This document shows positions 7,217-26,052 of a stretch of 64,000 nucleotides of DNA, piece by piece (position 1 is the first letter of the stretch; each line of letters begins with the position of its first letter). The notes beneath the pieces are model-generated. The model did not search any database. It was not told where the DNA came from and saw nothing but the letters and a program-made list of their open reading frames with translations. Origin of the DNA: Desertivirga arenae (GTDB taxonomy: Bacteria > Bacteroidota > Bacteroidia > Sphingobacteriales > Sphingobacteriaceae); the NCBI RefSeq assembly GCF_017355785.1, contig NZ_JAFEWE010000011.1, forward strand, positions 124,001 to 188,000. Reading direction: 5' to 3'. Both the position numbers and the translations under genes were made by a program.

Positions 7217-7244
7217 TTGTATGCGTTATTTTTTAGAATAGAGT

Positions 7245-9381: not shown

Positions 9382-9383
9382 TC

Positions 9384-10121
9384 TTATAAATATTTCTGTG
9401 ACTTTAAATAATTCGCCCAGGTTATATAGACCTCGGGTTTTAAATGGATCCCATCGCGGCTAAGTTCCTCCCTGAGTTGACCGTCTGCCGCAGCTACCAG
9501 AGGGTGGAGGTTTATCCAGATTAGATGCTCAGCTGCCGCCAGCTCCTTGGTTCTTTTATTCAGCTCGGTAACAAGAGGGCTGATATTTTTAAGATAAGAC
9601 GCAGTTGTCATGCTTTCGCGTACAGGAAGTATACTCTGTATATACAACGTTGTTTTAGGAGACTCCCTTTTAACCCTGGTTATAATTCTCTTGTAGTTAT
9701 TCACGATCACATCGATGGGAAGCCTTCTGGAGAGATCATTTATTCCGATTAGAAGAAAAATCTTCCGGGGTTTTGTAGCGAGGACCTCGTCTAAGCGGGC
9801 AAGCACACCGAAGGTATTATCCCCACCTATACCGCGATTAATGATATTATGATTGTCAAACACTTCCTGCCATTCGCCATGTTCAGTAATGCTGTTTCCC
9901 AGAAAAACTATGGGATGCTTGAAGTGGTGTGACTTTCTGAAGAACTCGGTCCTTTGCTGGTAATGCGCGTGGTTATAATTACTATCAATTTTTGCCAGAG
10001 GCTTTGAAACCGGCGTTTGCGCAAATGCATCGTTAGACAGTAATAGCCCTGACAATACCAATAGGCACCATGCTGTAAGGTTTTTGCCGTAGTTATTTTT
10101 ACTTATATGCCTGATCGTCAT
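9384..10121 (-). CDS. Secreted SGNH/GDSL hydrolase (copy 2)
   Basis: 245 residues with an N-terminal hydrophobic segment ending FAQ (exported). SGNH blocks are all present: FLGNSITEHGEW (nucleophile Ser), NRGIGGDNTFG (Gly), LIGINDLSRRLP (Asn) and DGIHLKPEVYITWANYL (Asp/His). Family members of this type remove O-acetyl groups from glycans such as sialic acids. It is a tandem paralogue of the following gene product (10123-10797), separated by one base. Whether the pair have different positional specificities is not visible. Confidence 0.85.
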   Translation of the reverse strand: MTIRHISKNNYGKNLTAWCLLVLSGLLLSNDAFAQTPVSKPLAKIDSNYNHAHYQQRTEFFRKSHHFKHPIVFLGNSITEHGEWQEVFDNHNIINRGIGGDNTFGVLARLDEVLATKPRKIFLLIGINDLSRRLPIDVIVNNYKRIITRVKRESPKTTLYIQSILPVRESMTTASYLKNISPLVTELNKRTKELAAAEHLIWINLHPLVAAADGQLREELSRDGIHLKPEVYITWANYLKSQKYL

Positions 10122-10122
10122 C

Positions 10123-10797
10123 TTACAATAGCTTTAATTTTTTAAGATAATCTGCCCAAAGGATGTAGGCTGCAAACCGGAGGTGGAGCCCATCAGTACT
10201 TAAGTCTTTCCTCAACTGCTTTTTTTCGTCCACAAAAACCGGATGGAGGTCGACATAACTTACCTTGTATTGCTGGCAGATCACTTTCATCCTGTTGTTT
10301 ACCTCGTTCACCTTCTCGTTACTCAGCTTTTCGTAAGACTTGGGCAGCATGGCCATATTAAGCGGTAAGAGGCTCTGCAAATACAGCTTTGTTTTCGGTG
10401 ATTCAGCCTGTACTTTTCTAATCAGCCGCACATAATTGTTAGCAATAACTTCTACAGGCATTCCTCTTTTGAGATCATTGATGCCGATGAGTACGAATAT
10501 TTTGGAAGGCTTAGAGGACAGCACTTCATCCAGTCTTGCCAGCACACCAAAAGTTACATCCCCGCTAATCCCGCGATTAAGTACGTGCTTTTTATGTACT
10601 ACTTCCTGCCACTCGCCCTGTTCTGTTATACTGTTTCCAAGAAATACGATCTCGTTCTTGTGATCTGGAAGTTTCCTGAAAAAATCTGACCGTAGCTGGT
10701 ACCAGGAGTTCTGATAACTACTGTCTATAGTTGTTGTGTCTTGAGCAAAGCCAGCTGCACTACCCAGGATCAATAATGCTGATAGTAAATTTCTCAT
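10123..10797 (-). CDS. Secreted SGNH/GDSL hydrolase (copy 1)
   Basis: I place the start at the ATG of MRNLLSALLILGSAAGFAQ (10797), which gives a clean signal peptide and begins just after the symporter stop; the longer frame would overlap it by 23 bp. Catalytic blocks: FLGNSITEQGEW, NRGISGDVTFG, LIGINDLKRGMP and TDGLHLRFAAYILWADYL. Length about 224 residues. It has the same block order as its neighbour and is clearly a tandem duplicate. Probable role: periplasmic O-deacetylation of the imported oligosaccharide before uptake by the adjacent symporter. Confidence 0.85.
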   Translation of the reverse strand: MRNLLSALLILGSAAGFAQDTTTIDSSYQNSWYQLRSDFFRKLPDHKNEIVFLGNSITEQGEWQEVVHKKHVLNRGISGDVTFGVLARLDEVLSSKPSKIFVLIGINDLKRGMPVEVIANNYVRLIRKVQAESPKTKLYLQSLLPLNMAMLPKSYEKLSNEKVNEVNNRMKVICQQYKVSYVDLHPVFVDEKKQLRKDLSTDGLHLRFAAYILWADYLKKLKLL

Positions 10798-10798
10798 A

Positions 10799-12646
10799 TT
10801 AACGACTAGCAAATTCAACATCTGCTTCTTTTAATTTATCCCACCAGAACTTCTTCAACCAAATACTTGTAAGGATAAGGACACCGCTCCAGATCACCAT
10901 TTGCGTATTCTCCCTGATCATAAAATAGATGGGTATAACCACTTGCGACATCTGCCAGATGATGCCCACTATGATATTGCTCATGTCCTTTTGAAAATCC
11001 TTATTGGGTTTGAACCCTGGATCTTCGCGCATTACTTCTTCCTTGATCGGTCCCCAAAAGCCCCATGGACGGGTCTTTCTGTAAAACTCCTTCACATCCT
11101 CCCTATTTGGCAAAGGCTCGAGATAGGTCCCGACAATGCAGCCCAGGGCCGAAACGAGGAGAATTACTGGAAACACGTAGATATCTACAATATCCGGGAA
11201 AGCGAAGAGCTTGATGGTAGAGGCGATAAGTCCGAACAACATTCCCCAGAAATAACCCATTCCGGTAAAGCGCCACCACACCCACTTCAACACATTTGCA
11301 GCTACATATCCCCCGTAAAGGGCAGAGGTAAGCCATAAAGTTAATTTGGTAAGCGAAGAGGCATTAAACCCAAAGATTATTCCTACTACCACAAGCAGCA
11401 CCGAAGAGATAACACTCAGGCGTATGTATTTGGCATCTGACGCGTTAGGATTTATGTATTTTTTATAGATATCATTTACGATATATGCCGGAGCTGCATT
11501 GACAAAGGCAGAGAAAGTGCCCATGAAAGCTGAAAGAAACCCTGCGAGAACGAGGCCCTTTAATCCAGTTGGTACAAACTGATTGATTGAAAGTGGCAAT
11601 ACTTTCTCGAAATCAATATTGCTTCCCATCTTACCCATCTCAGGACCGAGATAAACTAATCCCAGAACGGCAAAGGAGGCCACCATCAGGTAACGCGGAA
11701 TATACATTACAAAAATTGTCGAGAAACTCATCTTTGCTGCTTCGGAGGGAGTACGGGCAGAAAGCACACGTTGCATATCGTAACTTGGTACAGGGCCGGC
11801 AATTGAAGCAAAGATTCCTTTAAAGAGCATCATCATAAACAGAGCCCCGAATATGCCAAAGCCATCAGCCGCAATCTTATCGTTAACATTAGGTAAGGCT
11901 GTGGTGCTCCAGTCGAGATCCAGTTTCCACCCGAAGGAAAGGTCAGACCAGCCGGCAGGAATCGCGGCGTGGATCTGCTCCGCGGTAACAGAAGTATAAG
12001 CAATGTAACCTATAGCGAAGCAGGAAAGTGTCATAATGATGAACTGAAGTATTTCTGTGGCTACGACACTGTACATTCCCCCTTTAACTGTGTAAAGGGT
12101 CGTTAAAAGACAAACAATTAAGGAATAACTTCTTTCAGATGATAAATGAAAAGAACCTATGTTCGTACTTAAATCCCAGGGAAGGATCGAAGTACAGTAC
12201 TTACCGATCCCTTCGAAGAAATAGGCGATAAATCCCACCACACTTATGACCGCAAAGATCACGATGATGATATGAGAAAGCTTTGCTCCTTTACCATCTC
12301 CAAAACGGAAGGTGATCCATTGGGCACCTGTCATCACTCCGGATCGCCGCATCCATATTGCCAGGTAAACGAAAATAAAAACCTGGTTCCAGACCGGCCA
12401 TAACCAGGGGATCCACGCGCTTTTTAACCCATAAATAAAGAGGATACTTACAGTCCACATAGTGCCGGAGGTATCGAACATACCGCTGGCATTACTTAGG
12501 CCCAGGTAATACCACTTCATTGTGTTCCCTCCAAGGAAATACGAATTCAGGTCCTTCGACGCTTTTTTCGAGATGTAGAAACCCAATAGGAGGATCCCTA
12601 CGATGTAGGTCATAATGATAGTGATATCAATAAAACTTAATGACAT
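10799..12646 (-). CDS. Sodium:solute symporter (SSS family)
   Basis: 615-residue inner-membrane transporter with about 13-14 hydrophobic helices, beginning FIDITIIMTYIVGILLLGFYISK, with YFLGGNTMKWYYLGLSNASGMFDTSG, the region that forms the sodium and substrate site in SSS proteins. The C-terminal ~60 residues add two further helices. In this PUL it is the likely inner-membrane importer of the freed monosaccharide, analogous to sialic-acid-type SSS carriers. No other importer is present in the operon. Substrate assignment is inferred from the neighbouring epimerase and deaminase. Confidence 0.88.
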   Translation of the reverse strand: MSLSFIDITIIMTYIVGILLLGFYISKKASKDLNSYFLGGNTMKWYYLGLSNASGMFDTSGTMWTVSILFIYGLKSAWIPWLWPVWNQVFIFVYLAIWMRRSGVMTGAQWITFRFGDGKGAKLSHIIIVIFAVISVVGFIAYFFEGIGKYCTSILPWDLSTNIGSFHLSSERSYSLIVCLLTTLYTVKGGMYSVVATEILQFIIMTLSCFAIGYIAYTSVTAEQIHAAIPAGWSDLSFGWKLDLDWSTTALPNVNDKIAADGFGIFGALFMMMLFKGIFASIAGPVPSYDMQRVLSARTPSEAAKMSFSTIFVMYIPRYLMVASFAVLGLVYLGPEMGKMGSNIDFEKVLPLSINQFVPTGLKGLVLAGFLSAFMGTFSAFVNAAPAYIVNDIYKKYINPNASDAKYIRLSVISSVLLVVVGIIFGFNASSLTKLTLWLTSALYGGYVAANVLKWVWWRFTGMGYFWGMLFGLIASTIKLFAFPDIVDIYVFPVILLVSALGCIVGTYLEPLPNREDVKEFYRKTRPWGFWGPIKEEVMREDPGFKPNKDFQKDMSNIIVGIIWQMSQVVIPIYFMIRENTQMVIWSGVLILTSIWLKKFWWDKLKEADVEFASR

Positions 12647-12697
12647 GTGTTAATGATTAATGTGTTAAAAAGCGTAGTGCGAATATTGAAGGAGATA

Positions 12698-14533
12698 CTA
12701 GCGAATAATCGCTCCAGTAAAATTGACCTTTAAACTAAATGGATTAAGATACCTGTCAAGAAGAACAGCAGTTTGCCTTCGGTTTAGTGCAGAGTCTCCC
12801 CGGAGAGAACTTCCGGTTTCAGATATTATCTTATCTAACTGAACTTGCTTATTAATCAGAGAGATCTGCTCTGCAAGGAAATTTAGTGTAAGTGGCTGTC
12901 CCGATGCTTGCACCTGATTCAACTCCGGATAATACGTTTTAAGCCCGGTGACCAACTCGTGCTCACTGATCTCTCTGTCGGGGTAGAACCATGTTTGATT
13001 TGCCCATTTATACGCCAGCCCTGTACCTTTCAAAATACCAGTAGTTCCAATCCTTTGTATAGCCTGAAAATCCTTATCCTCAGGTTTAACATCTATAAAA
13101 GGCATCAGATAGCCCTTTGAATTTAGCAAAGCCTGTTGAACATGACGGATATGTACCTGTGCCGGCTGAACATTATCCTTAATTGCTGTTGCTGCCAATG
13201 CTCCCGCTGCCTGCCCAATTGTTAGTACTACCGGTTGAAGACGAGTTGCACCATTCACAATATTGCTTACACTAATGCTCTTTTCGGCAACGATCAAACC
13301 CTCGGTACTTTCAGGGATCAATGAACCTAAAGGAACATTGTAAGAAGGCACTTTTATCTTGACAAAATCAATTTTTGGTGCAGAAGGATTCTTCAAATGA
13401 TGATGATCGATGGTATAGTCGCCTACTGCAATCCCTGTACGATAAAGAGCTTCCTTTTGATCGTAGGGCTTCGCAACATGATTCAATGTGAGCGTTACCA
13501 GACCTTTCACCCTTCTTGACTCGCGATGATACGGGATCATCGGAAGCTTGTCCTTAGTTGGGTATTCATCAGCGATGCCGAGCTGTTTATATCCCAGCTC
13601 TGTTTGCAGGTAATAAAGGAATCTAAGTGTGTGCAGCTTGGCTTCCTTCAGCGCAACTGCTCTTTCTGCAGGAGATTTCTCAATAATATTAAGATAAATA
13701 TCATTACCGAACTTTGGCCAGTTGATCATGTACTTGTCATTGGGCAAGCGTCCATACTGCATCATTTGGTAGCAGTTATTGTCTGCAGAACCAAATGCAG
13801 CCGGATCAGACACATCGCAACTACCTTTAAAGTCGTTTGCGTTATAACCGGCCGGCTTAGCAATGGTCTTGTCAGCTCCTTTTCCATAATCCTTAAGTGT
13901 TACCACATAAGTCATATCCTGGATAATATTGTTTGCTTTTTCGGGCGCGAACTCCTCACCTGTATCAGAGCGGCTGTCCATTCCTATCCGGTAAGGGGCC
14001 CCTGCTGCAGCCATCACATCTCCTAGTTCGGTGGCATCAATGAGGATCTTTGCCTGGATCGTTTTCTTTTTCCCATTCGAGATCACGGTCAGTTTCCAGT
14101 GTCCATCACTCCTTTTTACCTCCTTCCAGGTAGTATTGTACCAGATACTAAGATTTGGATTTCGAGCAAGCTCCTGGAGAATCTTGTTTCCTGTTGCAGG
14201 CTCGAACAGGGTATTGCTTACCCATCCTGTTTCCACAGCTTTGGGGCCTCCATAGTATTCATAAAGTTTTTGACGGAACTCGCCCCACAAGCCCGCTGGA
14301 AGATTATGATTACCATCAATCGCGGAGACCCCAGCTGAAGTTAACATGCCACCTAACCACTGAGTTTCTTCTATGATCAGCGTTTTAACCCCCATTCGCG
14401 CTGATTGAATTCCTGCTGTTGTTCCGCTAGCCCCTCCACCCACAATCAGCACATCAGTGGTAAGAGTTTGTGCAGCAGCAGTAAGGGAGCAAAGGAAAAA
14501 AAGGAGGGCAATCAGAGGAGTTAAAAGACGCAT
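12698..14533 (-). CDS. Secreted FAD-dependent oxidoreductase
   Basis: 611 residues with a signal peptide (MRLLTPLIALLFFLCSLTAAAQ) followed at once by a Rossmann FAD motif (DVLIVGGGASGTTAGIQSARMG), then WLGGMLTSAGVSAIDGNH and IDATELGDVMAAAGA. This is the FAD_oxidored (PF12831) family, frequent in Bacteroidota PULs but with no firmly known reaction. An exported flavoprotein implies loading with FAD before or after export. The C-terminal ~110 residues form a separate helical region. Placed between the SusD/DUF5017 surface proteins and the symporter, it presumably oxidises a sugar or aglycone in the periplasm. Confidence 0.8.
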   Translation of the reverse strand: MRLLTPLIALLFFLCSLTAAAQTLTTDVLIVGGGASGTTAGIQSARMGVKTLIIEETQWLGGMLTSAGVSAIDGNHNLPAGLWGEFRQKLYEYYGGPKAVETGWVSNTLFEPATGNKILQELARNPNLSIWYNTTWKEVKRSDGHWKLTVISNGKKKTIQAKILIDATELGDVMAAAGAPYRIGMDSRSDTGEEFAPEKANNIIQDMTYVVTLKDYGKGADKTIAKPAGYNANDFKGSCDVSDPAAFGSADNNCYQMMQYGRLPNDKYMINWPKFGNDIYLNIIEKSPAERAVALKEAKLHTLRFLYYLQTELGYKQLGIADEYPTKDKLPMIPYHRESRRVKGLVTLTLNHVAKPYDQKEALYRTGIAVGDYTIDHHHLKNPSAPKIDFVKIKVPSYNVPLGSLIPESTEGLIVAEKSISVSNIVNGATRLQPVVLTIGQAAGALAATAIKDNVQPAQVHIRHVQQALLNSKGYLMPFIDVKPEDKDFQAIQRIGTTGILKGTGLAYKWANQTWFYPDREISEHELVTGLKTYYPELNQVQASGQPLTLNFLAEQISLINKQVQLDKIISETGSSLRGDSALNRRQTAVLLDRYLNPFSLKVNFTGAIIR

Positions 14534-14583
14534 ATGAGATTTATTTCTACTAAATAACGATATTATTACTAAAGATACAATAA

Positions 14584-14605
14584 CTTATTTAATTTTTTTA
14601 AAAAG
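14584..14605. promoter_or_regulatory. Putative ROK operator, degenerate copy
   Basis: CTTATTTA-N6-TTAAAAAG, with extended arms (AATAACTT at 14579 and AAGTTATT ending at 14610). It overlaps the DUF5017 stop codon and lies about 50 bases upstream of the FAD oxidoreductase start. The right half matches the perfect copies at 20612 and 24373; the left half has two mismatches. It may allow internal control of the operon. Confidence 0.4.
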
Positions 14606-15514
14606 TTATTTTATTGTAAGACGTATCGTTTTAACCTTCGTTTCCTGTCCCCGATTATTAGCATTGTTAGCCACAAATGTGACGTCGTATTGTCCTGGGG
14701 AAGGGAATTTATATTTGAAGGACCGCATAGGCTTATCCAGAAATGTTTTAATTGCTGTACCCAGGTCTGGATTTACAGTAGTTGGATAGAGCGCCTTAGA
14801 TATAGCCCAGTCTTCCGCCCGTGTAATGGTCCCACTTGCAGGAGCATAGAAAAGTACCGGTGCAGCAGTCTGAATGGTCCATTTGGTAGCGTGGGCACAA
14901 TCAACATTCAACCAGCCTGCCGTGCTGATAGTAGCCGCTGAAAGGACCGTATTATCAGGCAAAGTATTCGTTAAATTAAAGGCATAGATACGCCAGGTGC
15001 GTTGAGATGCCGGACTTATAGGCTGACCAATATATCTATAAGCAAAATACATTGGTTTTCCCTGTACAGCCAGATCAGAGACGTCAACTTTGCTGCTAAC
15101 TACCCGTGCCCCCGAGGCTCCCGCAGCAGCCGAAGACAAAGTAAACCGGCTGGTGATGTCTGTCCAGGTAGCGGCTTTTACATTTGTGGAATCATACGTG
15201 TTATTAAAGTCGGTAGATACCAAAACGCTTAAGTTATTTGCCTGCGAACCGAATAATACCTGTGTTTCCATGTTCAACTCCAGCTTTCCTACGGCTTCTA
15301 TGCGGTTCTTAAATTCGTACATCTTACCCCTTTCGCCAGAATAGAAGGTAACAATATCTGCATCTCCCTGGAAATTGAAAGTAACCGAGTCCTGAGTAGT
15401 GTATTCCGTTCCATTGACTGACACATCAAAATCAGGAACACTCACCTCTTCTTTTGTGCATGCAACTACCGATGCTACTGCAAGCATGCCTATTATCTTT
15501 TTAAACTTGTTCAT
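14606..15514 (-). CDS. DUF5017 surface lipoprotein of the PUL
   Basis: 302 residues with a lipoprotein signal (VASVVAC at the N-terminus, acceptor Cys about residue 19). The body matches the DUF5017 pattern: PDFDVSVNGTEYTTQDSVTFNFQGDADIVTFYSGE near the start and a PKD-like C-terminal strand set (GQYDVTFVANNANNRGQ). DUF5017 proteins are encoded next to SusD and are thought to be outer-membrane glycan-binding proteins. It lies 16 bp after susD, in the same operon. Confidence 0.78.
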   Translation of the reverse strand: MNKFKKIIGMLAVASVVACTKEEVSVPDFDVSVNGTEYTTQDSVTFNFQGDADIVTFYSGERGKMYEFKNRIEAVGKLELNMETQVLFGSQANNLSVLVSTDFNNTYDSTNVKAATWTDITSRFTLSSAAAGASGARVVSSKVDVSDLAVQGKPMYFAYRYIGQPISPASQRTWRIYAFNLTNTLPDNTVLSAATISTAGWLNVDCAHATKWTIQTAAPVLFYAPASGTITRAEDWAISKALYPTTVNPDLGTAIKTFLDKPMRSFKYKFPSPGQYDVTFVANNANNRGQETKVKTIRLTIK

Positions 15515-15530
15515 AAAGTTGCATTTGAAA

Positions 15531-17321
15531 TTACCATCCTGGATTTTGGATCAAACTCTGATTAAGAGAAATTTCTTTTGAGGGAATTGCCAGAAGCGTG
15601 TCGCGATTAGAGATATTTTGCCCTGAGCGAGCCGCATAAACGTAATTGGCAGGAGCAGTTGTGGCAATTTCGTTCGCAAGGTTCTTCATAACCGGAACCC
15701 ATAGCCCCCATCTTACCAGGTCAAATCTTCTTAATCCCTCGAAACCTAGCTCCCGCGATCTTTCAGCACGAATTACCTCCCGGAACGCATCTCGGTTTGC
15801 TGTCATTTCTGGAGTAAGCAGGCCATCAACAGTGTAAATTTCAGCTGTCGCAGTTGCTCCGCTTCCCGGATTACCCGGCCCGGGATCAAAAGTGATAGTT
15901 GGAATAGTATTATAACCTAAGCCGATTTCATTTAAAGTTACAGAGGTAACTCTTCCGCCGGATACTGTTGCTGTGGCTGTTGCCCCAGAGCCTGGGCCAC
16001 CGATGACCACTGTAGGAGCGGTAGCATATCCACTGCCTCCATTAGTTAAAGTAATTGTTTTAAGGGGCCGGGCATACGCGCGTCTCCGGACAGTATTTAC
16101 AGCCGCAATACCATCCACCGTAGGACCATTGATTTCATTATCAGCTTCTGCAAACATTAGCAGAACGTCTGAATAACGGAGCAGGGGAAAGTTGATAGCA
16201 GTGGTATTTACGAACTTTGGATTAGCAGCTTCATATTCCCTTCTCCACTTTGCAGCGTATTTTGCATAGTTAGAGAAAGTTGTTGAATGATAAACTTTGC
16301 TGGATGTGGTGCCATCGTAGGAATAATTGCTGATAGACCATGCACGACGAATGTCTCCTTCTTCAAAGAGCTTGTAATACCTGTCAGTAGGACGCTGAAT
16401 TCCATAACTATATCCAATAGTTTGATTGGTGGTACCAATTCCGTTTATTCCTCCAACTGACCCACCTTCATCCTGTGTTCCGTTTTTCAGGCCGAATTCC
16501 ACCTCCCAGATCACCTCCTTTTTATCGTATTGATCCGCCGCCATTTTTTTAAACACATCTTTGTAATCGGGATTCAGTGTGTGTCCATTAGCTGCCTCCA
16601 TTACTTTAGCAGCCCATTTTCTCGCTTCGGCATAACGACTTACATCTCTTAAAGGAGCTCCAGCCATTTTCAAGTTCACCCTGGCAAGGATTCCCCACAC
16701 GGCCGACTTGCTTACTCTTCCGGTGTAGTTATACTTATCAATACCATTGACAGAATCAGCAGCAGTCTCCATATCCTTTACAATTTGCTCATAAATGGTT
16801 TTATATGGAGTTTTAGCGATGTTCACATCATTCGGATCTTTGGCTGCCGTTAAACGCATAGGAACACTGCCCCAATTTTGAACGAGCACGAAATAATAAT
16901 ATGCCCTTAAAAATAGCGCTTCACCTTTGGCTACCCTACGCTTTTCTGCTGTCAAATTAGAGTTATCAATGTTATCCAGAAGCATATTAGCTCTGTTAAT
17001 CCCATCATACAAGGTGTTCCAGGTCGCTGTCAATTTAATATCACCGGGGTCGTAATTAAATAAAGCCACGTCTTGGGTCCAGCTCGATGAAGCTGGGAAG
17101 CTTTCATCACTAACATCCATCTCAAAGTACAGGTACCTGCCGTATGTGGATGACTTACCTAATACATCGTAAACTCCAGTTAGTGCAGTATTAATATCTT
17201 CTTCTGTTTTGTAATAATTAGAGGGAGAAAGCGAGTCGGGGGTTACATCCAGAAAGTTTTTACATGAAGCAAAGAGCAAGCTTCCCGCAATCAGGCTGTA
17301 TATAAATCTTTTCATAATCAT
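15531..17321 (-). CDS. SusD/RagB outer-membrane glycan-binding lipoprotein with repeat insertion
   Basis: 596 residues. Lipoprotein signal LLFASC (Cys20), then the RagB/SusD fold: [16 protein letters not shown], tetratricopeptide-like helices ([19 protein letters not shown]) and the C-terminal domain ([40 protein letters not shown]). It forms the lid on the SusC pore and binds the oligosaccharide. Unusual: residues ~421-498 are an insertion of two similar units, each with a GY-x-x-x-PT segment and a GSGATATA segment, placed between the two conserved halves of the C-terminal domain. It follows susC by 10 bp. Confidence 0.93.
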
Positions 17322-17331
17322 GTTCTTAATC

Positions 17332-20300
17332 TTAAAATTTAGCGTTCAATCCCAGGGTTAGAGTTCTTGCACGAGGATATGCTGAATAATCAAATCCCGG
17401 AGTAAGAGCACTGTTGCGCACAGAAACCTCAGGGTCGTATCCAGAATAATTTGTCCAGGTATACAGATTTTGTGCAGTAAGAGTAAGCCCAAGGCTGTTT
17501 ACTTTAATTGCTTTACTAAGTCTTTGAGGCAATGTATAACCCAGAGCTACGGTTTTTAATCTAAGAAAAGAGCCGTCTTCTATAACTCTTGTTGAATAAG
17601 CTTTCATTGTAGATCCCTTTACAGCTGGGATATCCGAATCAGGATTTTCTGGCGACCAACGGTTGGCATAAGTTGCATATTGGTTAGTATTGTATTTATA
17701 CCCGGATTCTAACATCAGACGATTGGCATTTAACACATCATTTCCGTAAGACCATTGGAAGAATACGTTTAAGCTGAAACCCTTATAGCTGAAATTATTA
17801 GTGAATCCTCCGGTATGTTTTGGATAAGGCTGACCGATAATAACCTTATCTTTTTCATCAATAACAAGGTCACCATTAATATCCCGGTATTTGATATCTC
17901 CAGGCTGAACCGCTGTTCTTGCCTCACCATTGGCCGTAATATCGTTCTTCAATGTATACGTATTTCCCGTTTTAACGAAATCTTCATACTTGTAAGTGCC
18001 ATCCCAGATATAACCGTAGAATTGAGATATGGGTTGGTCAAGCATTGCTACGTATGGAAAAATATTCACCCAGTCATCCCCCCAGTATTGGGATGTGAGC
18101 ATATAGTTTTGATTCTCAGTGAGGCCTAAAACTTTATTACGATTGAAGGAAATATTGAACTGCGAATTCCAGTTAAAGTTCTTATTCTTAACAGGATTTG
18201 CCGAAAGCGTTAACTCTAAACCCTCATTTCTTACTTTTCCAATATTCTTAGTTGCCTTACTATATCCAATAGATGCAGGCAAATCTGCATTTAGAAGAAG
18301 GTCGGAGGTGTTCTTTCTATAAATATCGGCAGTTAAGGAGATCCGGTCCTGTAAAAACCCCAGGTCAAGCCCTATATCTGTCTGGGTTGTGGTTTCCCAC
18401 TTCAGATCGCTATTACCAAGACTTGCAGGTACACTTCCATAAGTAACGGTATTGTTGAACATATAGCCACTGGTGGTGGTTAAAGCTAGTAGCGGGAATG
18501 CTGCATAGTTTCCCACACCGTTGTTTCCTGTGCGTCCCCACGAAGTTCTAAGCTTGCCATTGGAAAAAACAGGGCTATTCTTTAAAAATTTCTCTCTCCC
18601 AAAAACCCAGGCAAAGGAACCCGATGGGAAATAACCCCAGCGGTTATTTGGGAAGCGGGATGAACCATCTACACGATAACTTGCCGTGAAGAGATACTTG
18701 GAATCAATATTATAGTTTAACCTTGCAAAGCCTGATGCCAGATAATTCTCGGAGGCAGCAGAAGCGATATTATTAAAGGTACCTTCATCTAGTCCATTAA
18801 GTCCCAGTCCTTCATTTGGTAAAAGAACAGAGGTACCGCCAAAAGTGGAATTCTTGTTACCCTCAAATGAAAAGCCTCCGACAGCTGTTAAAAGATCTTT
18901 TTTGTTGATACGCTTATTATAGGTTAGAGTATTGGTGTTTTGCCATGAATTGCTATTTAAAAAAGTCCTTGAACCGTTTACTTTAAAATTTGTCTGTGGA
19001 TTACCAAACCTTGACATAGAGCCATTAAATACATCATACCTCCGGACGCCGTTGCTATATCCTCCCATTACTTTGAACTTCAACTCCTTACTTAAAGTAA
19101 ATTCGGCGTAGCCATTCGTATTAAAGCTGTTGCTGTAGTTTTCTCTCAACTCGTTTTGAGTAGTGAGTACAGGATTAAACCGAAAGTCATTTGTAGTAGC
19201 AACCTCTGGATCTACGGGCATTTCAAGTAATTGATCAATCGTTACATTTCCGTTTGTTGTGATCGGACGATAGGCCCAAACGTTAAACAGCAGGTTAATT
19301 TCATTATTATAAGATCCCGTAGAAGAAGGAGAACCATAATTTTTGAGGTAGGAATAATTTGCATTAAACCCCACTTTAAGGATTTTGGAGACCTCCTGGT
19401 CTAGCGCGGCCCTGCCCTGGGTCCTGTTAAAACCGGAATTAAGAATTATACCATCCTGTGAAAGTGTAGAGAGGGAGGCAGAATATTTAGTTTTTTCATT
19501 TCCGCCAGTTAAAGAAAGATAGTAGTTCTGCATGGCTGCATCCTTCTTTGTCACCTGATCCTCCCAATTTATACCCTTTACATTGCGATACTTTTCCAGG
19601 TTCAACACGTACTGATTAGTACCGGGATCCAATTCACCATAGAAAAGGCGTGTATTAACAGGATCCATTTCATTCTGCATTTTAACAAATTCGAAGGGAC
19701 TTAATACTTCCATTCGCTTCTTGTTATTCTGAATGCCATAATAGCTATCAAAAGTAATAACAGGCCTTCCTGCTTTACCTCTTTTGGTAGTAACCATCAC
19801 CACGCCATTAGCACCCCTTGCACCCCAAATCGCCGTAGCTGAAGCATCTTTCAGAATATCGATTGATTCGATATCATTTAAATCAATCGTATTTAATGGA
19901 TTAACTGCCGAATTTGCAACGTCCTCCATCGGAAAACCATCAATTACAAATAAAGGGTAGTTATTTTGTGTAATAGAATTATAGCCGCGCACTACAATAT
20001 CCACTGGTGCCCCTGGTTGGCCTTCGCTCGAAGTAACCCGGACACCGGCCACCCTTCCTGCCAAAGCTTCGTCTAATGATTTAACCGGGCTTTTTTGCAT
20101 ATCCTCAATAGGAACACTTCCAACAGAACCTGTAAGATCTGCACGGCGGGCGGTACCGAAACCCACAACCACCACTTCATTTAACTTAGATGCACTTTCG
20201 GCCAGAGAGACATTCGCAACGGCTTTATCACCTACGGCTATTTCTTTTGTAGTAAAACCGATATAAGAAAAAACCACTACAGGATTAGCCGAACTTAGGT

Positions 20301-20514
20301 TTAATCTATATCTACCATAAACATCTGTACTGACCCCTCTGGCCTCTCCCTTCACCTTAACCGAAACACCAATTAAAGCTTCCCCTTTGGAGTCAGTAAC
20401 AGTCCCTGTAACGATCCTTGCCTGAGCCCAGGCCCCGTTGTACTGACAAAGCATGAGAACAACTGCCAGGAGAACGTGCAACAGCTGATCTTTTTTTGTA
20501 ATTAGTTTTCGCAT
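17332..20514 (-). CDS. SusC/RagA TonB-dependent outer-membrane transporter
   Basis: 1060 residues: signal peptide, carboxypeptidase-regulatory-like domain ([22 protein letters not shown]), TonB box region ([11 protein letters not shown]), plug domain ([43 protein letters not shown]) and a 22-strand barrel ending LTLGLNAKF. It imports oligosaccharide across the outer membrane with its SusD partner. It is the first gene of the PUL operon. Upstream lie a -7 element at 20590-20597, a palindrome in the leader and a probable ROK operator at 20612. Confidence 0.95.
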
Positions 20515-20554
20515 AACATACGATTAAGATTAATGAGTACTTTTTATTGGATTA

Positions 20555-20577
20555 TTGAAAAAGGATTCCTTTTTCAA
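20555..20577. repeat. 23-bp palindrome in the susC leader
   Basis: Arms of 11 bases (TTGAAAAAGGA and its complement) around one central base. It lies between the predicted transcription start (about 20583) and the susC ATG, so the mRNA leader could fold into a hairpin close to its 5' end. It could be a second operator or an mRNA-stabilising stem. Confidence 0.6.
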
Positions 20578-20589
20578 ATGCGCGCATAA

Positions 20590-20597
20590 CAAACATA
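20590..20597 (-). promoter_or_regulatory. -7 element of the PUL susC promoter
   Basis: TATGTTTG on the minus strand matches TAnnTTTG. Transcription would begin near 20583. The operator-like palindrome at 20612-20633 covers the region where the -33 contacts would be made, which is a layout suited to repression. Confidence 0.5.
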
Positions 20598-20611
20598 GAA
20601 AAAGAAATGAA

Positions 20612-20633
20612 CTTTTTAAAAAAAATTAAAAAG
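20612..20633. promoter_or_regulatory. Putative ROK operator (perfect copy)
   Basis: CTTTTTAA-N6-TTAAAAAG with perfect 8-bp arms, located 15 bases upstream of the susC -7 element. The same palindrome recurs at 24373 and, with G/C swapped outer bases, at 26021; imperfect copies occur at 14584 and 20951. AT-rich palindromes of about this size are typical of NagC/Mlc-type ROK repressors. Confidence 0.6.
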
Positions 20634-20950
20634 ATTTGGTCACCAAAGGCTTATTTTCTTGATCTTTTTTACAATAAAGCCGAAAATACCAGGCAACTCT
20701 CTATTAAAAACACCGAATTTTTAAATATTAATAAAAATATGAGCATCTAAACGGCACATTATTAAATAAACAGCTCCATAAGTACCAAAATCAACAAGAC
20801 AAGTGTAGCCCGTCCTGCTTAAATCAAAACAACTTCGACATTAACAGCACCGTCATGGCCATTAATTGACTAAAAAACAATAAAAATGCGGGTTCTCGCG
20901 GTCTATAATTCAATGCAATTTAATAAAATATCTTTAATATAAACAATATG
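20634..20950. other. AT-rich divergent intergenic region between susC and the ROK gene
   Basis: Together with the elements on either side this region separates the two divergent genes. I see no open frame with coding character and no RNA gene in it. It is A+T-rich, with several short A/T runs, and should hold the ROK promoter, which I could not place with confidence. Confidence 0.5.
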
Positions 20951-20971
20951 TTTTTTAAATATTTTAAAAAG
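20951..20971. promoter_or_regulatory. Putative ROK operator, near copy upstream of the regulator gene
   Basis: TTTTTTAAA (20951-20959) and TTTAAAAAG (20963-20971) around a 3-base centre, 77 bases before the ROK start codon. One arm base differs and the total is one base shorter than the other copies. The position suggests autoregulation. Confidence 0.45.
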
Positions 20972-21047
20972 TATAAGATTTATACAAGCGGAACAGCAGA
21001 AAAATAGGATTTATACTTATTATTGTATTAGAACTTGCTTGACACGG

Positions 21048-22259
21048 ATGACCTTTTTTGAGGAATTAAACAACGACAATATTACGGGGGTAGCTTATAA
21101 GAATATTAATATTAAGAAAGCCCTTCTTGCTTATTTTGCGAATTCCGGAAACTCTACGATTGCCGATCTCTGCAAGGAACTGGCTCTTAGTGCTCCCAAA
21201 GTGAACAATCTACTTAACGAGTTAATTGCCGACGGATTAGTTAAAGATTATGGAAAGGTAGATTCTACCGGAGGAAGAAGACCGAACCTGTATGGATTAT
21301 TACCAGAATCAGCTTTTTTTATAGGGGTTGATGTAAAGCAAAGTCACATCAATATCGGCATTTCTGACCTTCAGAAGAACATGGTAAAGCTGGTGGAACA
21401 CCTCCCGTACCGCCTAAGCAACAACCAGGAATCCCTCGACGAATTATGTAAGCTTATTTCTACTTTTATAGAAGAGTTTAATGCTCCAAAAGACAAGATA
21501 TTAGGTATAGGTATTAATCTCTCCGGACGAATCAATTATGCCACAGGATATAGCTATAGTTTTTTCCATTTTCACGAAGAACCTTTATCAAAAATTATAG
21601 AATCACAGCTTGGAATAAAAGTATTTCTTGAAAACGATTCAAGAGCAATGGCTTATGGAGAATTTTCCTCAGGAGTGGTTAAAGACGAAAAAAACGTATT
21701 ATTCCTTAACCTGGATTATGGTTTGGGAATGGGTATCATGCTTAATAGTCAGCTTTATTATGGCAAGTCGGGTTTTGCTGGTGAATTTGGACATATGCCT
21801 CTGTTTAAAAATGAAATTATTTGCCACTGCGGAAAAAAGGGATGCCTGGAGACGGAAGCATCAGGATGGGCTCTAAAAAGAATGTTTAAAGACAAGATTA
21901 CGACAGGCTCGTCAAGCATTTTAGATCTGAAGGCTGAGAATATTGAGCTAGAGGATATTTTAGAAGCAGCCCAAAATGATGACACACTTGCTATTGAACT
22001 GATAGCACAAGTGGGAGAAAACCTGGGCCGTGGGATTGCACTACTGATCAACATCTTCAATCCGGAACTTGTAATCTTAGGGGGAAGCCTCGCAGAAACA
22101 GGTGAATTTATACGGCTCCCCATAAAAAGTGCTATTAACAAGTACTCCCTTAGTCTTGTAAATGCAGACACGCAGCTCAAAATTTCCACCTTAAAAGAGA
22201 AAGCTGGGGTAACAGGTGCATGCCTCCTGGTCAGGAACAGACTATTATCGCTTAGTTAG
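21048..22259 (+). CDS. ROK-family transcriptional regulator (NagC/Mlc-like)
   Basis: About 403 residues from the ATG at 21048 (a TTG at 21039 adds three). The N-terminus is a winged helix (NSTIADLCKELALSAPKVNNLLNELIADGLV, then TGGRRPNLYGL). The ROK sugar-binding domain follows: IGVDVKQSHINIGI, GIGINLSGRIN, FLENDSRAMAYGE, GLGMGIMLN, AGEFGHMPL, and the zinc site CHCGKKGCLE. It is divergent from the amino-sugar PUL and is probably its repressor, released by an amino sugar or its phosphate. Its stop overlaps the converging esterase gene by 15 bp. Confidence 0.92.
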   Translation: MTFFEELNNDNITGVAYKNINIKKALLAYFANSGNSTIADLCKELALSAPKVNNLLNELIADGLVKDYGKVDSTGGRRPNLYGLLPESAFFIGVDVKQSHINIGISDLQKNMVKLVEHLPYRLSNNQESLDELCKLISTFIEEFNAPKDKILGIGINLSGRINYATGYSYSFFHFHEEPLSKIIESQLGIKVFLENDSRAMAYGEFSSGVVKDEKNVLFLNLDYGLGMGIMLNSQLYYGKSGFAGEFGHMPLFKNEIICHCGKKGCLETEASGWALKRMFKDKITTGSSSILDLKAENIELEDILEAAQNDDTLAIELIAQVGENLGRGIALLINIFNPELVILGGSLAETGEFIRLPIKSAINKYSLSLVNADTQLKISTLKEKAGVTGACLLVRNRLLSLS

Positions 22260-23054
22260 ACCGGTAACCGCAAGGCGATTGAAGAATTCAAAATGAGCCA
22301 AAATAGAGTGCGACCAATATGAGCCGGTATGAGCTCCGGGCTGGGCAAGATAAGTAGCCTTTATTTTAAGCTCATCACACTTTTCGCGAAACTTACGACT
22401 GGTGATGTAGAGATAATCCTCTGTACCCGAATCAAAGATTATCTGTTTACCCAGTCCGGCAATTTTCGGCAAGAGATTCACCACCGAGCAACTGTCAAAA
22501 GCCTTATTATCATCTGAATACTGACCCAATATTGCAGCAAGGGTCGTTTTCTTAAAACCTGAGTATCTAAGGTTTAAAACCCCGGAGGTACTACCTGCAC
22601 TCATAAAAATCTGAGGGTGGCGCAAAAACAGCCACATAGCACCGTGACCACCCATACTTGCACCGGTAATAAATTGCCTTTGCGGATCTATTAAGTAACG
22701 CTTCTGAATATAAGGTAAGAACTCCGCTATGAAAAAAGACTCGTATTGCAGACTATCTTTATTTAGCGAATTCATATACCAGCTTTTCTTCAAGCCATCA
22801 GGACAAACAATAATGAAACTATACTTATTGCTCAAGGCCTGAAGATCTACAAGCTTGCTCCAGGACTTATAGTTAGCCGAATGACCATGCAGTAGATAGA
22901 CAACGGGATATGACCTATCTTTTTTGTAATTCTCTGGTTTGTATACCAGGATCGAATCCTGAGTTCGAAGATACTTTGAGTCCAGCACGAGCTTATCCTG
23001 CGCAAATATCGATATCGGAAAACACAGGAATAATAATAAAAACAGCGGTTTCAT
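22245..23054 (-). CDS. Secreted alpha/beta-hydrolase, esterase D-like
   Basis: 269 residues with signal peptide MKPLFLLLFLCFPISIFAQ. This is the putative-esterase (PF00756) family: VVYLLHGHSANYKSWSK oxyanion region, nucleophile elbow GASMGGHGAMW (Ser), acid in FDSGTEDYLY, and His in PGAHTGSYW. Relatives include feruloyl/acetyl esterases of PULs and S-formylglutathione hydrolase; the signal peptide favours glycan deacylation in the periplasm. It lies 52 bp downstream of the unknown secreted protein on the same strand. Confidence 0.85.
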   Translation of the reverse strand: MKPLFLLLFLCFPISIFAQDKLVLDSKYLRTQDSILVYKPENYKKDRSYPVVYLLHGHSANYKSWSKLVDLQALSNKYSFIIVCPDGLKKSWYMNSLNKDSLQYESFFIAEFLPYIQKRYLIDPQRQFITGASMGGHGAMWLFLRHPQIFMSAGSTSGVLNLRYSGFKKTTLAAILGQYSDDNKAFDSCSVVNLLPKIAGLGKQIIFDSGTEDYLYITSRKFREKCDELKIKATYLAQPGAHTGSYWSHSILAHFEFFNRLAVTGLTKR

Positions 23055-23106
23055 TTTCCCTGAAAAAAGGTTAATATTTTCTTAACAACGCCAACAATAA
23101 CATTAA

Positions 23107-24306
23107 TTATTTCAAATCCACGGGAATAAAGATCAAAGGTGTTGGCAAGCAAGAGGCTCCCGGGGGAGAATACGTCAGGTTGATGGTTTGCTCTTCACCA
23201 TTAGGCGCAGGAGGAAATACCTGAATTACTATTGCCTCTGGAGCTCCACGAGTGGTGAGCTTATCGGAAGGCAGCTTTACAATCCCCTTCTCAAACTTAC
23301 CCTTATCCACCAGCATAGTCATGGCCATTCCATTACACCATTTATTATCAGCCGAACGCGAGTTCCAGCTTACCAAAGCCAAACCTTTGCCATCAGAACT
23401 TTTCCACTTCATATTAATATTATACATTACTCCGTAATTTCCAGCAAGCTTTGCCTGTTGGCCACGACTACTTTCCTTGCCTAAAACCCATGGATCTATT
23501 TTACCGTCAGCCAACATGATCTGAGCTACACCATTTTTTGTGTCGACCACTCCATCCGTTATTATGTCATAATTACTAACACCAAATACTCCACGCCCTG
23601 CTCCGCTATGCCCTTTTGGAGGAAGAATATTCTTAATCCGCTTTAGCGCCTCAGAACCTTTCTCTTTGGGAGAGGTTTGAATAATACTTATCTCTGCCGG
23701 CTGATCAATCACGAACTCATAAAAGCCGTGGACCAATTCATCATACTTTACTACATTCTTCTCCAGCTGCTCGTCAACAGGGATGGCTTCTCCCGGCTTT
23801 ATTGTCCTTACCCTTTCTTCTCCATTTGAAGCGAAATAATCTGCAAGACCCTGTTTACCGATTTGAAAATAATTTGAACTTGGCTTCTGCGAAGAGTACT
23901 TGAGCATTCGCATGTTGAGTTTTGAAGATCCCAGATTTTTTATTACCGCAGTAATCTTCCTTTCAATTTTTTGAGGATCTTTTACTCCGTTTACGTTATA
24001 TACATATAAACGCACAGCACCTGGCTGAACTTTTTCCTGCAATGATATCCCTTCAGGCTCCCTTATATACTCAGGATCATCGGATATTATATATTGAGGA
24101 CCAGGCAAAACAACTTTTTGATAATTTATCAGAGGAAACTTTTCAGTAAGAAAACCATCAAGAGATATAATGCTTCCCTGCTTAGCATTCATGATTTTCT
24201 GGTTCTGTTCTGCGGTGATCGTCTGCGAATAACCAAAAGCAGATACCAGTAAAGAAAAAGCAAGAACAGACCCTTTAGCAAGCGTTGAAATTGAAGTAGA
24301 GATCAT
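23107..24306 (-). CDS. Secreted protein of unknown function
   Basis: 399 residues from the ATG at 24306, where a good signal peptide begins (MISTSISTLAKGSVLAFSLLVSAFGYSQ). The frame is open further upstream, but that part reads through the operator-like palindrome at 24373 and is unlikely to be translated. The mature protein has a charged N-terminal half (GISLQEKVQPGAVRLYVYNV, RTIKPGEAIPVDEQ) and a beta-rich C-terminal half (GNYGVMYNINMKWKSSDGKG, LVSWNSRSADNKWCNGMAMT). I do not recognise a family or catalytic motif. It sits between the GH20 and esterase genes, so a glycan-related role is likely. Confidence 0.7.
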   Translation of the reverse strand: MISTSISTLAKGSVLAFSLLVSAFGYSQTITAEQNQKIMNAKQGSIISLDGFLTEKFPLINYQKVVLPGPQYIISDDPEYIREPEGISLQEKVQPGAVRLYVYNVNGVKDPQKIERKITAVIKNLGSSKLNMRMLKYSSQKPSSNYFQIGKQGLADYFASNGEERVRTIKPGEAIPVDEQLEKNVVKYDELVHGFYEFVIDQPAEISIIQTSPKEKGSEALKRIKNILPPKGHSGAGRGVFGVSNYDIITDGVVDTKNGVAQIMLADGKIDPWVLGKESSRGQQAKLAGNYGVMYNINMKWKSSDGKGLALVSWNSRSADNKWCNGMAMTMLVDKGKFEKGIVKLPSDKLTTRGAPEAIVIQVFPPAPNGEEQTINLTYSPPGASCLPTPLIFIPVDLK

Positions 24307-24372
24307 AATGAATGTGTGTTTGTATACCAGCTTGATGGTAAATATAAGAATAAAATTAACAAGACATATATA

Positions 24373-24394
24373 CTTTTTAAATATTTTTAAAAAG
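24373..24394. promoter_or_regulatory. Putative ROK operator (perfect copy)
   Basis: CTTTTTAA-N6-TTAAAAAG, perfect 8-bp arms (9 bp if the inner A/T pair is counted), 67 bases upstream of the unknown secreted protein. A -7-like TATATTTA on the minus strand at 24339-24346 lies between the two. Confidence 0.6.
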
Positions 24395-24404
24395 AAAAAG
24401 AGGA

Positions 24405-25976
24405 CTACTCTTTCAGATATTTTATGCCGGCATTTTTCCAATGCAGATAGAACCAGGAAAGCCTATCCCGAAATCCTTCATATGTTTTGTTTTCTTTCTG
24501 TGTCCATCCAACTTCTGCATAAGCTGCAAGTTTGGGAAACACCCTGCCATGCAGATCATTCACCAGGGGGATCCATTCGCTCCACATATGACAGGCAGAA
24601 CCTAGAAACTTCTGCCTCTCTTCCAAAGGCAATCCTTGGGGGACGGGTTCAAAGCCATAAGCATCCTTCAGCTTAACTTTTTCAATGTCCATATAAGTTT
24701 TATAGTTGATGGAATTCACTATTTCATATCCGTTTTGGGCGGCCTTCTTCATCAGCTTTACATCCCCTTTCCAAAAATCGATAATAGTATTTGGAGCGAG
24801 ATTACCACTGACTTTTAAATCGCCATTTGCTATCTCGTCGTGGATCTTATCCCCGAGGATCTCATTCCAGCCCATCATTCTTCTTCCCTTTGATTCGAGA
24901 TAACGCGAAACCGTATTCATATACCAAAGTTGCAGGTCGGCAGAAGAAGATAATCCCTTTTCCTTAATAAACGCTTGCACCTCATCCGACTGGTCCCAGT
25001 GTTTGTATAGCACTTCATCACCGCCTACATGGATCACCTGTGAAGGAAATAGTTGAATAACCTCATCCAACACATCCTCTACGAAGCCTCTTACACGTGG
25101 ATCGGAGACTTTCAGCACATTTGGTTGGTTGGCAAACGAAAAAGGTACGGTGATTGGAACCGAAGCGCTTCCCAACCAGGGATATGCAGCTATTGCGGCG
25201 CTGGTATGTCCTGGTATATCAATTTCGGGGATTACAGTAATATGCCTTTCCGCGGCATACCGGATAATCTCTGCTACATCCTTCTGACTATAGAAACCAC
25301 TATGAGGTTTTCCGTCATAGAAACCTCTGATGCCATTTACTTTGATCTCAGAGGAATCTCTCTTACCTCCAACTTTGGTAAGTAGAGGATACTTTTTGAT
25401 TTCTAATCGCCAGCCTGTATTATCGGTTAAGTGCCAATGAAAAATGTTCATTTTCAAAAGCGCCATCTCGTCTAATAACTGCTTGACTACCTGCTTCCCT
25501 TTAAAATACCTTGCCTCGTCAAACATGAACTCTCGCCATGCAAAGCGAGGGTGATCAACAATAGAAAGGTAGGGAATTGTAATTCTTCCCTGTGGTTCTA
25601 GCCTTATGATCTGCTTTAATGTTTGAATGCCATAAAAAACTCCTGCAGCACCTCCTCCTTTGATAGTAACCCCTTTTGAGTCTACCGTTATACTATATCC
25701 CTCCTTATTTCTTCTGGCTATTATAGGATCAATTGAAAGACGAACAGGAAATTTCCTACTGTACTTGTTCTTTTTTAATGAATTAAAGCAGGTTTTAACT
25801 AGTTGCCGCTCCCTTACTAAACTCCCTGAAGCATGAACCTCTGGCCGGAAATTAAGTGTAAGATCCCCGTTTAAAGAAACGACCTTAACTGGTGCAGGAA
25901 TAAGCCCGGGGGCTTGGGCATACGAATTCCAAATAGAAAAAATTAGAAAACCAAGTAGTGTACTTTTAAAAACCAT
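24405..25976 (-). CDS. GH20 beta-N-acetylhexosaminidase
   Basis: 523 residues from the ATG at 25976, which begins a signal peptide (MVFKSTLLGFLIFSIWNSYAQ); the longer frame starts at a TTG inside a palindrome. GH20 features: N-terminal GH20b domain, then the barrel with FMFDEARYF, FHWHLTDNTGWRLEIKKYP, VIPEIDIPGHTSAAIAAYP and the catalytic Asp320-Glu321 pair in HVGGDEV. It removes terminal GlcNAc or GalNAc by substrate-assisted catalysis, probably in the periplasm. Its product matches the NagB/AGE pathway of the neighbouring PUL, and an operator-like palindrome lies 35 bases upstream. Confidence 0.95.
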   Translation of the reverse strand: MVFKSTLLGFLIFSIWNSYAQAPGLIPAPVKVVSLNGDLTLNFRPEVHASGSLVRERQLVKTCFNSLKKNKYSRKFPVRLSIDPIIARRNKEGYSITVDSKGVTIKGGGAAGVFYGIQTLKQIIRLEPQGRITIPYLSIVDHPRFAWREFMFDEARYFKGKQVVKQLLDEMALLKMNIFHWHLTDNTGWRLEIKKYPLLTKVGGKRDSSEIKVNGIRGFYDGKPHSGFYSQKDVAEIIRYAAERHITVIPEIDIPGHTSAAIAAYPWLGSASVPITVPFSFANQPNVLKVSDPRVRGFVEDVLDEVIQLFPSQVIHVGGDEVLYKHWDQSDEVQAFIKEKGLSSSADLQLWYMNTVSRYLESKGRRMMGWNEILGDKIHDEIANGDLKVSGNLAPNTIIDFWKGDVKLMKKAAQNGYEIVNSINYKTYMDIEKVKLKDAYGFEPVPQGLPLEERQKFLGSACHMWSEWIPLVNDLHGRVFPKLAAYAEVGWTQKENKTYEGFRDRLSWFYLHWKNAGIKYLKE

Positions 25977-26010
25977 TGCCGAGAGTTGATCATTATACGA
26001 TTTCAATAAA

Positions 26011-26052
26011 AGTAACAATAGTTTTTAAAAATTATTAAAAACTATTGTTACT
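26011..26052. promoter_or_regulatory. 42-bp palindrome upstream of GH20, contains the putative ROK operator
   Basis: Perfect 18-base arms (AGTAACAATAGTTTTTAA and its complement) around a 6-base centre. The core GTTTTTAA-N6-TTAAAAAC at 26021-26042 has the spacing of the other operator copies with the outer C/G pair inverted. There is no GC-rich stem or U-run, so this is not a typical terminator. It lies between the GH43 stop and the GH20 start. Confidence 0.6.

Follow-up and report, generated by a model that had tools for sequence, protein, structure and literature searches.

A recurrent AT-rich palindrome as the predicted operator of a NanR-type ROK repressor in an amino-sugar locus of Desertivirga arenae

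Results

In a stretch of 64,000 nucleotides from Desertivirga arenae (Bacteroidota, Sphingobacteriaceae; contig NZ_JAFEWE010000011.1, positions 124,001 to 188,000; hereafter the window), the palindrome CTTTTTAA-N6-TTAAAAAG and its close variants are present in five copies, each 44-97 bp upstream of a start codon. The transcription units flanked in this way are the FAD-oxidoreductase operon, susC, a gene for a ROK-family repressor, a secreted uncharacterised protein together with an esterase, and a gene of glycoside hydrolase family 20 (GH20). Judging from the sequence, this palindrome is very probably the operator of the NanR-type ROK repressor encoded at 21048-22259, which would place the five units under one control. 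The positions of the sites and of the genes behind them, as listed in an original prediction made from the letters of the window, were borne out by the pattern search and by measurement of the gaps (Table 1). Its statement that no copy lies elsewhere in the window was nearly right: one further place with at most two mismatches was found at 15497-15518, where it overlaps the DUF5017 gene at its start, and two places have three mismatches (20717 and 59839).

Table 1. Candidate operator copies and the genes of the locus, in window coordinates.
Feature	Positions	Strand	Details
Candidate operator copy	14584..14605	.	two mismatches to CTTTTTAA-N6-TTAAAAAG; 50 bp to the FAD-oxidoreductase start codon
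Candidate operator copy	20612..20633	.	perfect arms; 97 bp to the susC start codon
Candidate operator copy	20950..20971	.	two mismatches; 76 bp to the ROK ATG at 21048
Candidate operator copy	24373..24394	.	perfect arms; 66 bp to the ATG at 24306 (secreted protein/esterase pair)
Operator-like copy	26021..26042	.	GTTTTTAA-N6-TTAAAAAC; 44 bp to the GH20 ATG at 25976
ROK-family repressor gene	21048..22259	+	403 amino acids, winged helix-turn-helix and ROK domain, NanR-type (Pfam, tree)
Presumed operon, FAD oxidoreductase to nagB/PIG-L	5297..14533	-	Pfam; close spacing suggests co-transcription
susC, susD and DUF5017 genes	14606..20514	-	Pfam
Secreted uncharacterised protein and esterase	22245..24306	-	protein of 399 amino acids at 23107-24306, esterase at 22245-23054
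GH20 beta-N-acetylhexosaminidase	24405..25976	-	Pfam Glyco_hydro_20, 4e-95

Apart from the outer C/G, all letters of the palindrome are A or T, and the intergenic DNA at the locus is 72-85% AT. The copy at 20950 can alternatively be read with a spacer of 5 bases, which makes its core perfect (TTTTTAA-N5-TTAAAAA), and the 22 letters of the copy at 20612 recur identically upstream of susC in a genome of the same genus (G001). We compared the counts with several chance controls. With at most three mismatches, eight places were found in the window against 2.27 expected, and none of 100 shuffles reached eight. Two perfect sites and five sites with at most two mismatches were observed in the four intergenic regions concerned, where 2000 dinucleotide shuffles gave maxima of zero and one, respectively. 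Across the genome of 6,187,183 bases, the pattern STTTTTAAN6TTAAAAAS occurs three times and the pattern TTWWTAAW6TTAWWAA likewise three times, in both cases always in this locus (reversed-pattern controls: 0 and 1). With all three perfect genome places in this locus, the motif does not turn up in AT-rich DNA at large, a point on which the original prediction had been staked. The loose pattern is not specific: it matches 32 genome places with at most two mismatches, six of them in the locus (control: 16), and the W-rich search at two mismatches is near background (18 places, five in the locus; control: 11).

The whole-genome motif search gave no convincing trans member elsewhere in the window's own genome. 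Three candidate trans sites were rejected: C11:64506 (one mismatch) falls inside an AraC-type gene; C11:42778 (one mismatch) has a G+C-rich spacer, with no gene start flagged close downstream; and C34:597767, located 95 bp before an uncharacterised gene, has two mismatches and a spacer that is partly non-A/T.

The candidate regulator is a ROK protein (Pfam ROK, 7e-58) with an N-terminal HTH_24/MarR_2 domain, and its best matches among proteins of the PDB are the ROK regulators 1z05 and 5f7r, with Mlc (1z6r) scoring lower. The zinc motif CxCGxxGC is a signature of the ROK family; here it reads CHCGKKGCLE, and C259, C261 and C266 are invariant in 23 of 23 aligned sequences. Its open frame has 438 amino acids, and no other ROK match in the genome has one sufficient for a helix-turn-helix (HTH) domain, the remaining matches having 294-301. 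A search of 149 other genomes gave orthologues with 48-87% identity in 21, one of which has two copies; a genome with a 70-residue ROK fragment (G086) was excluded from the counts. Further relatives were taken from public named genomes (the best 80 of 592), among them Bacteroides fragilis, whose NanR (L151) is 50% identical to the window protein. In a tree of 42 chosen sequences, drawn with a midpoint root, a branch supported at 100/100 separates 34 orthologues, including the B. fragilis protein, from eight paralogues (35-38% identity). In addition, the protein scores 202 and 180 bits with the NCBIfam equivalogs NagC and Mlc, far under their cut-offs of 650 and 530. The original prediction had compared the palindromes with operators of NagC/Mlc-type ROK proteins; the family assignment stands, and by tree, identity and NCBIfam scores the protein is nearer to Bacteroides NanR than to NagC/Mlc. 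One metagenome-assembled genome labelled Sphingomonadales (L115) carries a ROK gene that is placed among Chitinophagaceae-type sequences and is probably mislabelled or a mixed bin.

Next, we looked at conservation upstream of the ROK orthologues. Considering 300 bp and spacers of 5-7 bases, the core is present with at most one mismatch in 16 of 23 ROK-upstream regions (the window and 22 others) and with two mismatches in four more, raw counts without shuffle control. Together with the recovery of ROK genes by a motif matrix described below (19/29), this agrees with the predicted conservation in orthologous promoters. The strict form CTTTTTAA was rejected as the motif of the family, being too narrow: many relatives have TTATTAA-type arms, and a degenerate matrix was therefore learned de novo. 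For this, palindromic motif discovery was run blind to the earlier pattern on 250-bp ROK-upstream regions, with 20 shuffles per set. Set A comprised 31 sequences, mostly from Sphingobacteriaceae but including one Bacteroides-like genome (G122); set B 43 sequences, mostly from Chitinophagaceae/Cytophagales; and set C 23 sequences, mostly from Bacteroidales but including one Sinomicrobium (L140). Set B holds at least one member of the Sphingobacteriaceae (L083), and the three sets are imperfectly separated clades. They exclude L047 and L062 (same contigs as L084 and L131) and L053 (a near copy of L103), while L130, L133 and L162, with at most about 115 bases upstream, were excluded from motif discovery and from the position and cross-set tests.

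All three sets share one common motif type. Set A gave.TTtTTAAaatattTTAAaAA. with a likelihood gain of 168.8 (shuffle mean 46.7, maximum 53.4), set B gave cTtawTAAaatattTTAwtaAg with a gain of 194.8 (mean 49.9, maximum 56.2) and set C gave.tTawTAAAttaaTTTAwtAa. with a gain of 73.4 (mean 39.7, maximum 45.5). The family motif is CTTwwTAA-W6-TTAwwAAG and not strictly CTTTTTAA, so that the palindrome of the original prediction was retained and its strict form given up. After removal of near-duplicates (31, 43 and 23 sequences reduced to 30, 41 and 23), the matrices were applied across sets and compared with 500 permuted palindromic matrices: none of the 500 was as good in five of six pairings, and two were in the pairing of A to C. 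The set-A matrix reaches 12 bits in only 1 of the 23 set-C regions. At the level of whole genomes, a perfect W6 core is present in 11/22 orthologue-bearing genomes versus 14/128 others, and 10 of the 15 such cores in the orthologue-bearing genomes lie in the window or in a 20-kb ROK region. The full form CTTWWTAAW6TTAWWAAG occurs 12 times, in seven of the 22 ROK-bearing genomes (reversed control: 1).

The set-B matrix was further used to scan the gene context of 29 set-A loci (threshold 14 bits; L103 excluded; susC homologues below 35% identity classed as 'other'). Sites were found upstream of ROK in 19/29 cases, of the FAD oxidoreductase in 9/11, of the epimerase in 4/7, of susC in 2/2 and of the secreted uncharacterised protein in 2/4, versus 15/174 for other genes. 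The remaining classes are small (GDSL1 0/2, DUF4434 1/2, SSF 0/1, esterase 1/1). Ten of the 15 'other' genes with a site were scanned and comprise four MFS transporters, four NAGPA phosphodiester glycosidases (L046:15764-17263, L084:8776-9783, L087:8813-9823 and L129:7204-8226) and two DUF3370 genes (L100:13470-14708 and L057:5669-6907). The NAGPA sites, some of which are common to the adjoining ROK promoter, may hint at a phosphodiester of N-acetylglucosamine (GlcNAc) as substrate for part of the regulon.

Possible trans members were seen in G071, where five copies of CTTWWTAAW6TTAWWAAG all lie on contigs other than that of the ROK orthologue. One precedes a nagB/PIG-L gene whose product is 76% identical to that of the window, one a GH20 gene and a divergent oxidoreductase, and one a NagX-like gene (163 bits, under the equivalog cut-off of 480). 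G027 has a single copy, 66 bp before an MFS gene.

The genes of the locus itself fit amino-sugar use. The presumed operon encodes an FAD oxidoreductase, an SSF transporter, two GDSL esterases, a DUF4434 protein, an N-acylglucosamine 2-epimerase (NCBIfam AcylGsamEpipAGE, 672 bits against a cut-off of 600) and a glucosamine-6-phosphate deaminase/PIG-L fusion (nagB, 245 bits against a cut-off of 237). One GDSL protein matches the solved sialate O-acetylesterase 6njc (1.5e-44), and the DUF4434 protein matches the solved chain 4h41 (2.2e-169). The secreted protein of 399 amino acids had no match in Pfam, NCBIfam or PDB sequences. It is kept in the ROK loci of 12 relatives (55-77% identity) and represents an uncharacterised protein family of amino-sugar polysaccharide utilization loci (PULs). 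Its AlphaFold model is confident (pLDDT 82.7), and no meaningful fold match was obtained in the PDB, with TM scores of at most 0.28 among the 50 matches listed. Beyond GH20, the stretch 26043-59838, with neighbouring GH43 and GH92 genes, has no copy of the palindrome at up to three mismatches, so that GH20 seems to mark the end of the putative regulon.

Discussion

Our data support, as a prediction, the proposal that the PUL and the GH20/esterase genes are tied to one repressor. The link between protein and palindrome is drawn because the ROK gene is the sole HTH-length match in the genome and the site recurs before its orthologues. A dimer of the ROK protein on each palindrome would block the adjacent promoter. 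The Bacteroidetes -7 consensus is TAnnTTTG, and a -7-like box, TATGTTTG, starts at -83 relative to susC; since the 20612 site ends at -98, 14 bp earlier, the bound repressor would cover the -33 region of this promoter. A scan for sigma-70 promoters stayed at background (28 found versus 28.1 expected). Uptake by SusCD, the operon for the FAD oxidoreductase, SSF transporter, esterases, DUF4434 protein, epimerase and NagB, the secreted protein/esterase pair, GH20 and the regulator itself would thereby share a single control, with autoregulation of ROK acting through the 20950 copy.

An amino-sugar metabolite, as sugar ligand of the ROK domain, would release the repressor. Candidates are GlcNAc, N-acetylmannosamine (ManNAc) and their phosphates, which would be likelier than sialic acid in view of what the operon encodes and of the missing nanL. 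No nanL orthologue was found in the window genome, where the best match is partial (29%, residues 8-240), and sialic acid was rejected as the most likely substrate for this reason. Matches to nanL of at least 40% were obtained in 7 of the 22 orthologue-bearing genomes.

Several observations weigh against the palindrome as operator of this particular repressor. Three of the 23 ROK-upstream regions have no core better than three mismatches, and perfect CTTWWTAAW6TTAWWAAG is missing from 15 of the 22 orthologue-bearing genomes. The outcome of a position test, in which the best site of the whole locus was counted if it fell within 250 bp before ROK (loci below 9 kb excluded), was weak to moderate. 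Only one of six observed values beats all permuted matrices, namely that of matrix B on set A (18/31; permuted mean 10.6, maximum 16); the others are A on B (19/38; 12.2, 21), C on A (15/31; 11.0, 19), C on B (19/38; 11.4, 19), B on C (9/21; 5.7, 11) and A on C (7/21; 6.1, 11). The weakness of this test is explained by the ROK-upstream regions being among the most AT-rich parts of the loci. Copies in G071 also precede an acetate-CoA ligase gene and a sigma/FecR pair, which are not obviously amino-sugar genes, and the same holds for the gene behind a copy in G073. Moreover, G071 has two HTH-length ROK paralogues and its own orthologue lacks a good upstream site, so that a paralogue could be the protein that uses the trans sites. 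Finally, the upstream regions of 48 distant ROK paralogues yield a similar motif; the motif alone therefore fails to single out this orthologue group, and its class is family-wide. This leaves no ambiguity in the D. arenae genome, because no second ROK regulator was found there.

One of the five copies raises the question of a different function. The copy at 26021, present as predicted and uncertain as an operator, is enclosed by a hairpin between GH43 and GH20 (26011-26052) with perfect 18-bp arms and an RNA fold of -20 kcal/mol, which starts 32 bp past the GH43 stop codon, is followed by a short T tail and looks like a terminator on the minus strand. This copy may be the GH43 terminator, an operator or both. 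To extend that view to all copies, as AT hairpins that end transcription between gene groups, is very unlikely to be correct, even though the copies at 14584 and 24373 also lie at most 10 bp past stop codons. The remaining four fold at just -4 to -6 kcal/mol, those at 20612 and 20950 stand between divergently oriented genes, a place that calls for no terminator, and the copies in relatives are tied to ROK and FAD-oxidoreductase promoters.

It is likewise very unlikely that the sites are operators of another regulator, be it a global one such as Crp or a local factor encoded elsewhere in the genome. The ROK link is one of association and similar palindromes exist at ROK paralogues, which would both allow for this. 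However, a global factor would have many sites, whereas the perfect sites are confined to this locus, and the Crp-like motif of Bacteroides given in a passage of PMC3878776, wwwTATGTTnTAnAACATAwww, is different. Furthermore, the site recurs upstream of ROK in each of the three clade sets and close to nanR in B. fragilis, and no further regulator gene was detected among the 15 window proteins scanned (5.3-27 kb). Least credible of all is that AT-rich promoter DNA happens to be palindromic here, with no protein partner involved. The A/T-only letters, the composition of the intergenic DNA and the position test, which exceeded permuted matrices just weakly to moderately, would be in line with such an origin. 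In contrast, the 2000 shuffles of these very regions gave at most one site, the reversed patterns 0-1 places, and the cross-set matrices outscored permuted ones.

With regard to PUL biology, a cytoplasmic sugar-sensing repressor appears to put a PUL, a catabolic operon and GH20/esterase genes under a common switch whose operator can be read from the sequence. Local sensors of PULs include sigma/anti-sigma pairs. Many PULs are also described, in the relevant passages of PMC3878776, with their own hybrid two-component (HTCS) or SusR-like systems. If the ROK reading is true, the matrix would predict amino-sugar regulons in Bacteroidota, with nagB, GH20 and NagX among the possible members in trans, and the locus would offer a small system in which to test how sister ROK repressors keep off one another's sites.

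Comparison with known systems

Bacteroidota ROK paralogues (31-38% identity), eight of which form a separate group in the tree, have a palindrome of similar type. De novo discovery in 48 of their upstream regions (L181-L220, L038-L045) gave the motif ctTTttaAAatatTTtaaAAag with a likelihood gain of 183.5 (shuffle mean 59.0, maximum 71.0). By eye, about a third of the best sites are one base shorter, CTTTTT-N9-AAAAAG with 21 bp, and just 6/48 and 9/48 of these regions attain 12 bits with the matrices of sets A and B, respectively. The difference between 21 and 22 bp hints that spacing may separate the paralogues. A more far-reaching scheme is possible, though we hold it with considerable doubt: NanR-type ROK repressors from Bacteroides to Sphingobacteriaceae would have kept the 22-bp AT-only code CTTwwTAA-W6-TTAwwAAG while their regulon would have moved from sialic acid lyase genes to entire amino-sugar PULs that lack nanL. 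Paralogues would be kept apart mainly by the one-base spacing (22 versus 21 bp), and the genome studied here, with its single ROK regulator, would be free of this constraint and use both spacings.

RokB of Streptomyces coelicolor, another ROK regulator, likewise binds at several places flanked by T-rich or A-rich DNA, its own promoter among them (PMC4856308). Its 28-bp PnovH site, TTTGTTC-N11-GAACAAA, differs by its internal G/C; a perfect inverted repeat is lacking at two of the genomic sites of RokB, and its proposed link is to amino-acid metabolism. NagC and Mlc of Escherichia coli are likewise ROK repressors of amino-sugar and glucose genes, and the window protein remains under both equivalog cut-offs. 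Sites of NagC, Mlc and other ROK regulators are described as rich in T on their left side and in A on their right (PMC4856308); the likeness to our palindrome refers to this published description and not to the exact E. coli consensus.

The closest known relative is B. fragilis NanR, an orthologous ROK regulator on the same side of the 100/100 branch. The gap between nanR and nanL contains a perfect 18-bp palindrome, TAATAAAATATTTTATTA (L151:9781-9798), of the type seen in the window, and the set-C matrix outscores permuted matrices on sets A and B. In B. fragilis, nanR is divergent to genes for a DHDPS-family lyase, an epimerase and an MFS transporter, a neighbourhood that matches the nanR, L, E, T set as far as it is described in PMC13114119 and PMC3969230; the latter also reports that nanR deletion makes the aldolase constitutive. 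For B. thetaiotaomicron, whose NanR is BT0433, PMC12596196 mentions a NanR iModulon, and a Bacteroides NanR regulon was predicted in 2013 to cover sialic acid and GlcNAc genes (PMC3878776). The difference lies in the genes: in place of the operon nanR-nanL-nanE-nanT, the window sites stand before the SusCD/FAD-oxidoreductase/GH20 set. Control of the sialic acid genes nanL, nanE and nanT has no counterpart in the window genome, where the epimerase is only 34% identical to B. fragilis NanE. The motif was not found for Sphingobacteriaceae in the literature searched by title and abstract; its Bacteroides form may already be in print, as a NanR logo is published (PMC3878776, Figure 4). The locus is best described as a ROK regulon of the NanR type, rewired to amino sugars. 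As T-rich/A-rich sites are usual for ROK regulators and the NanR regulon was predicted in 2013, it adds a new case to a type of control that is already known.

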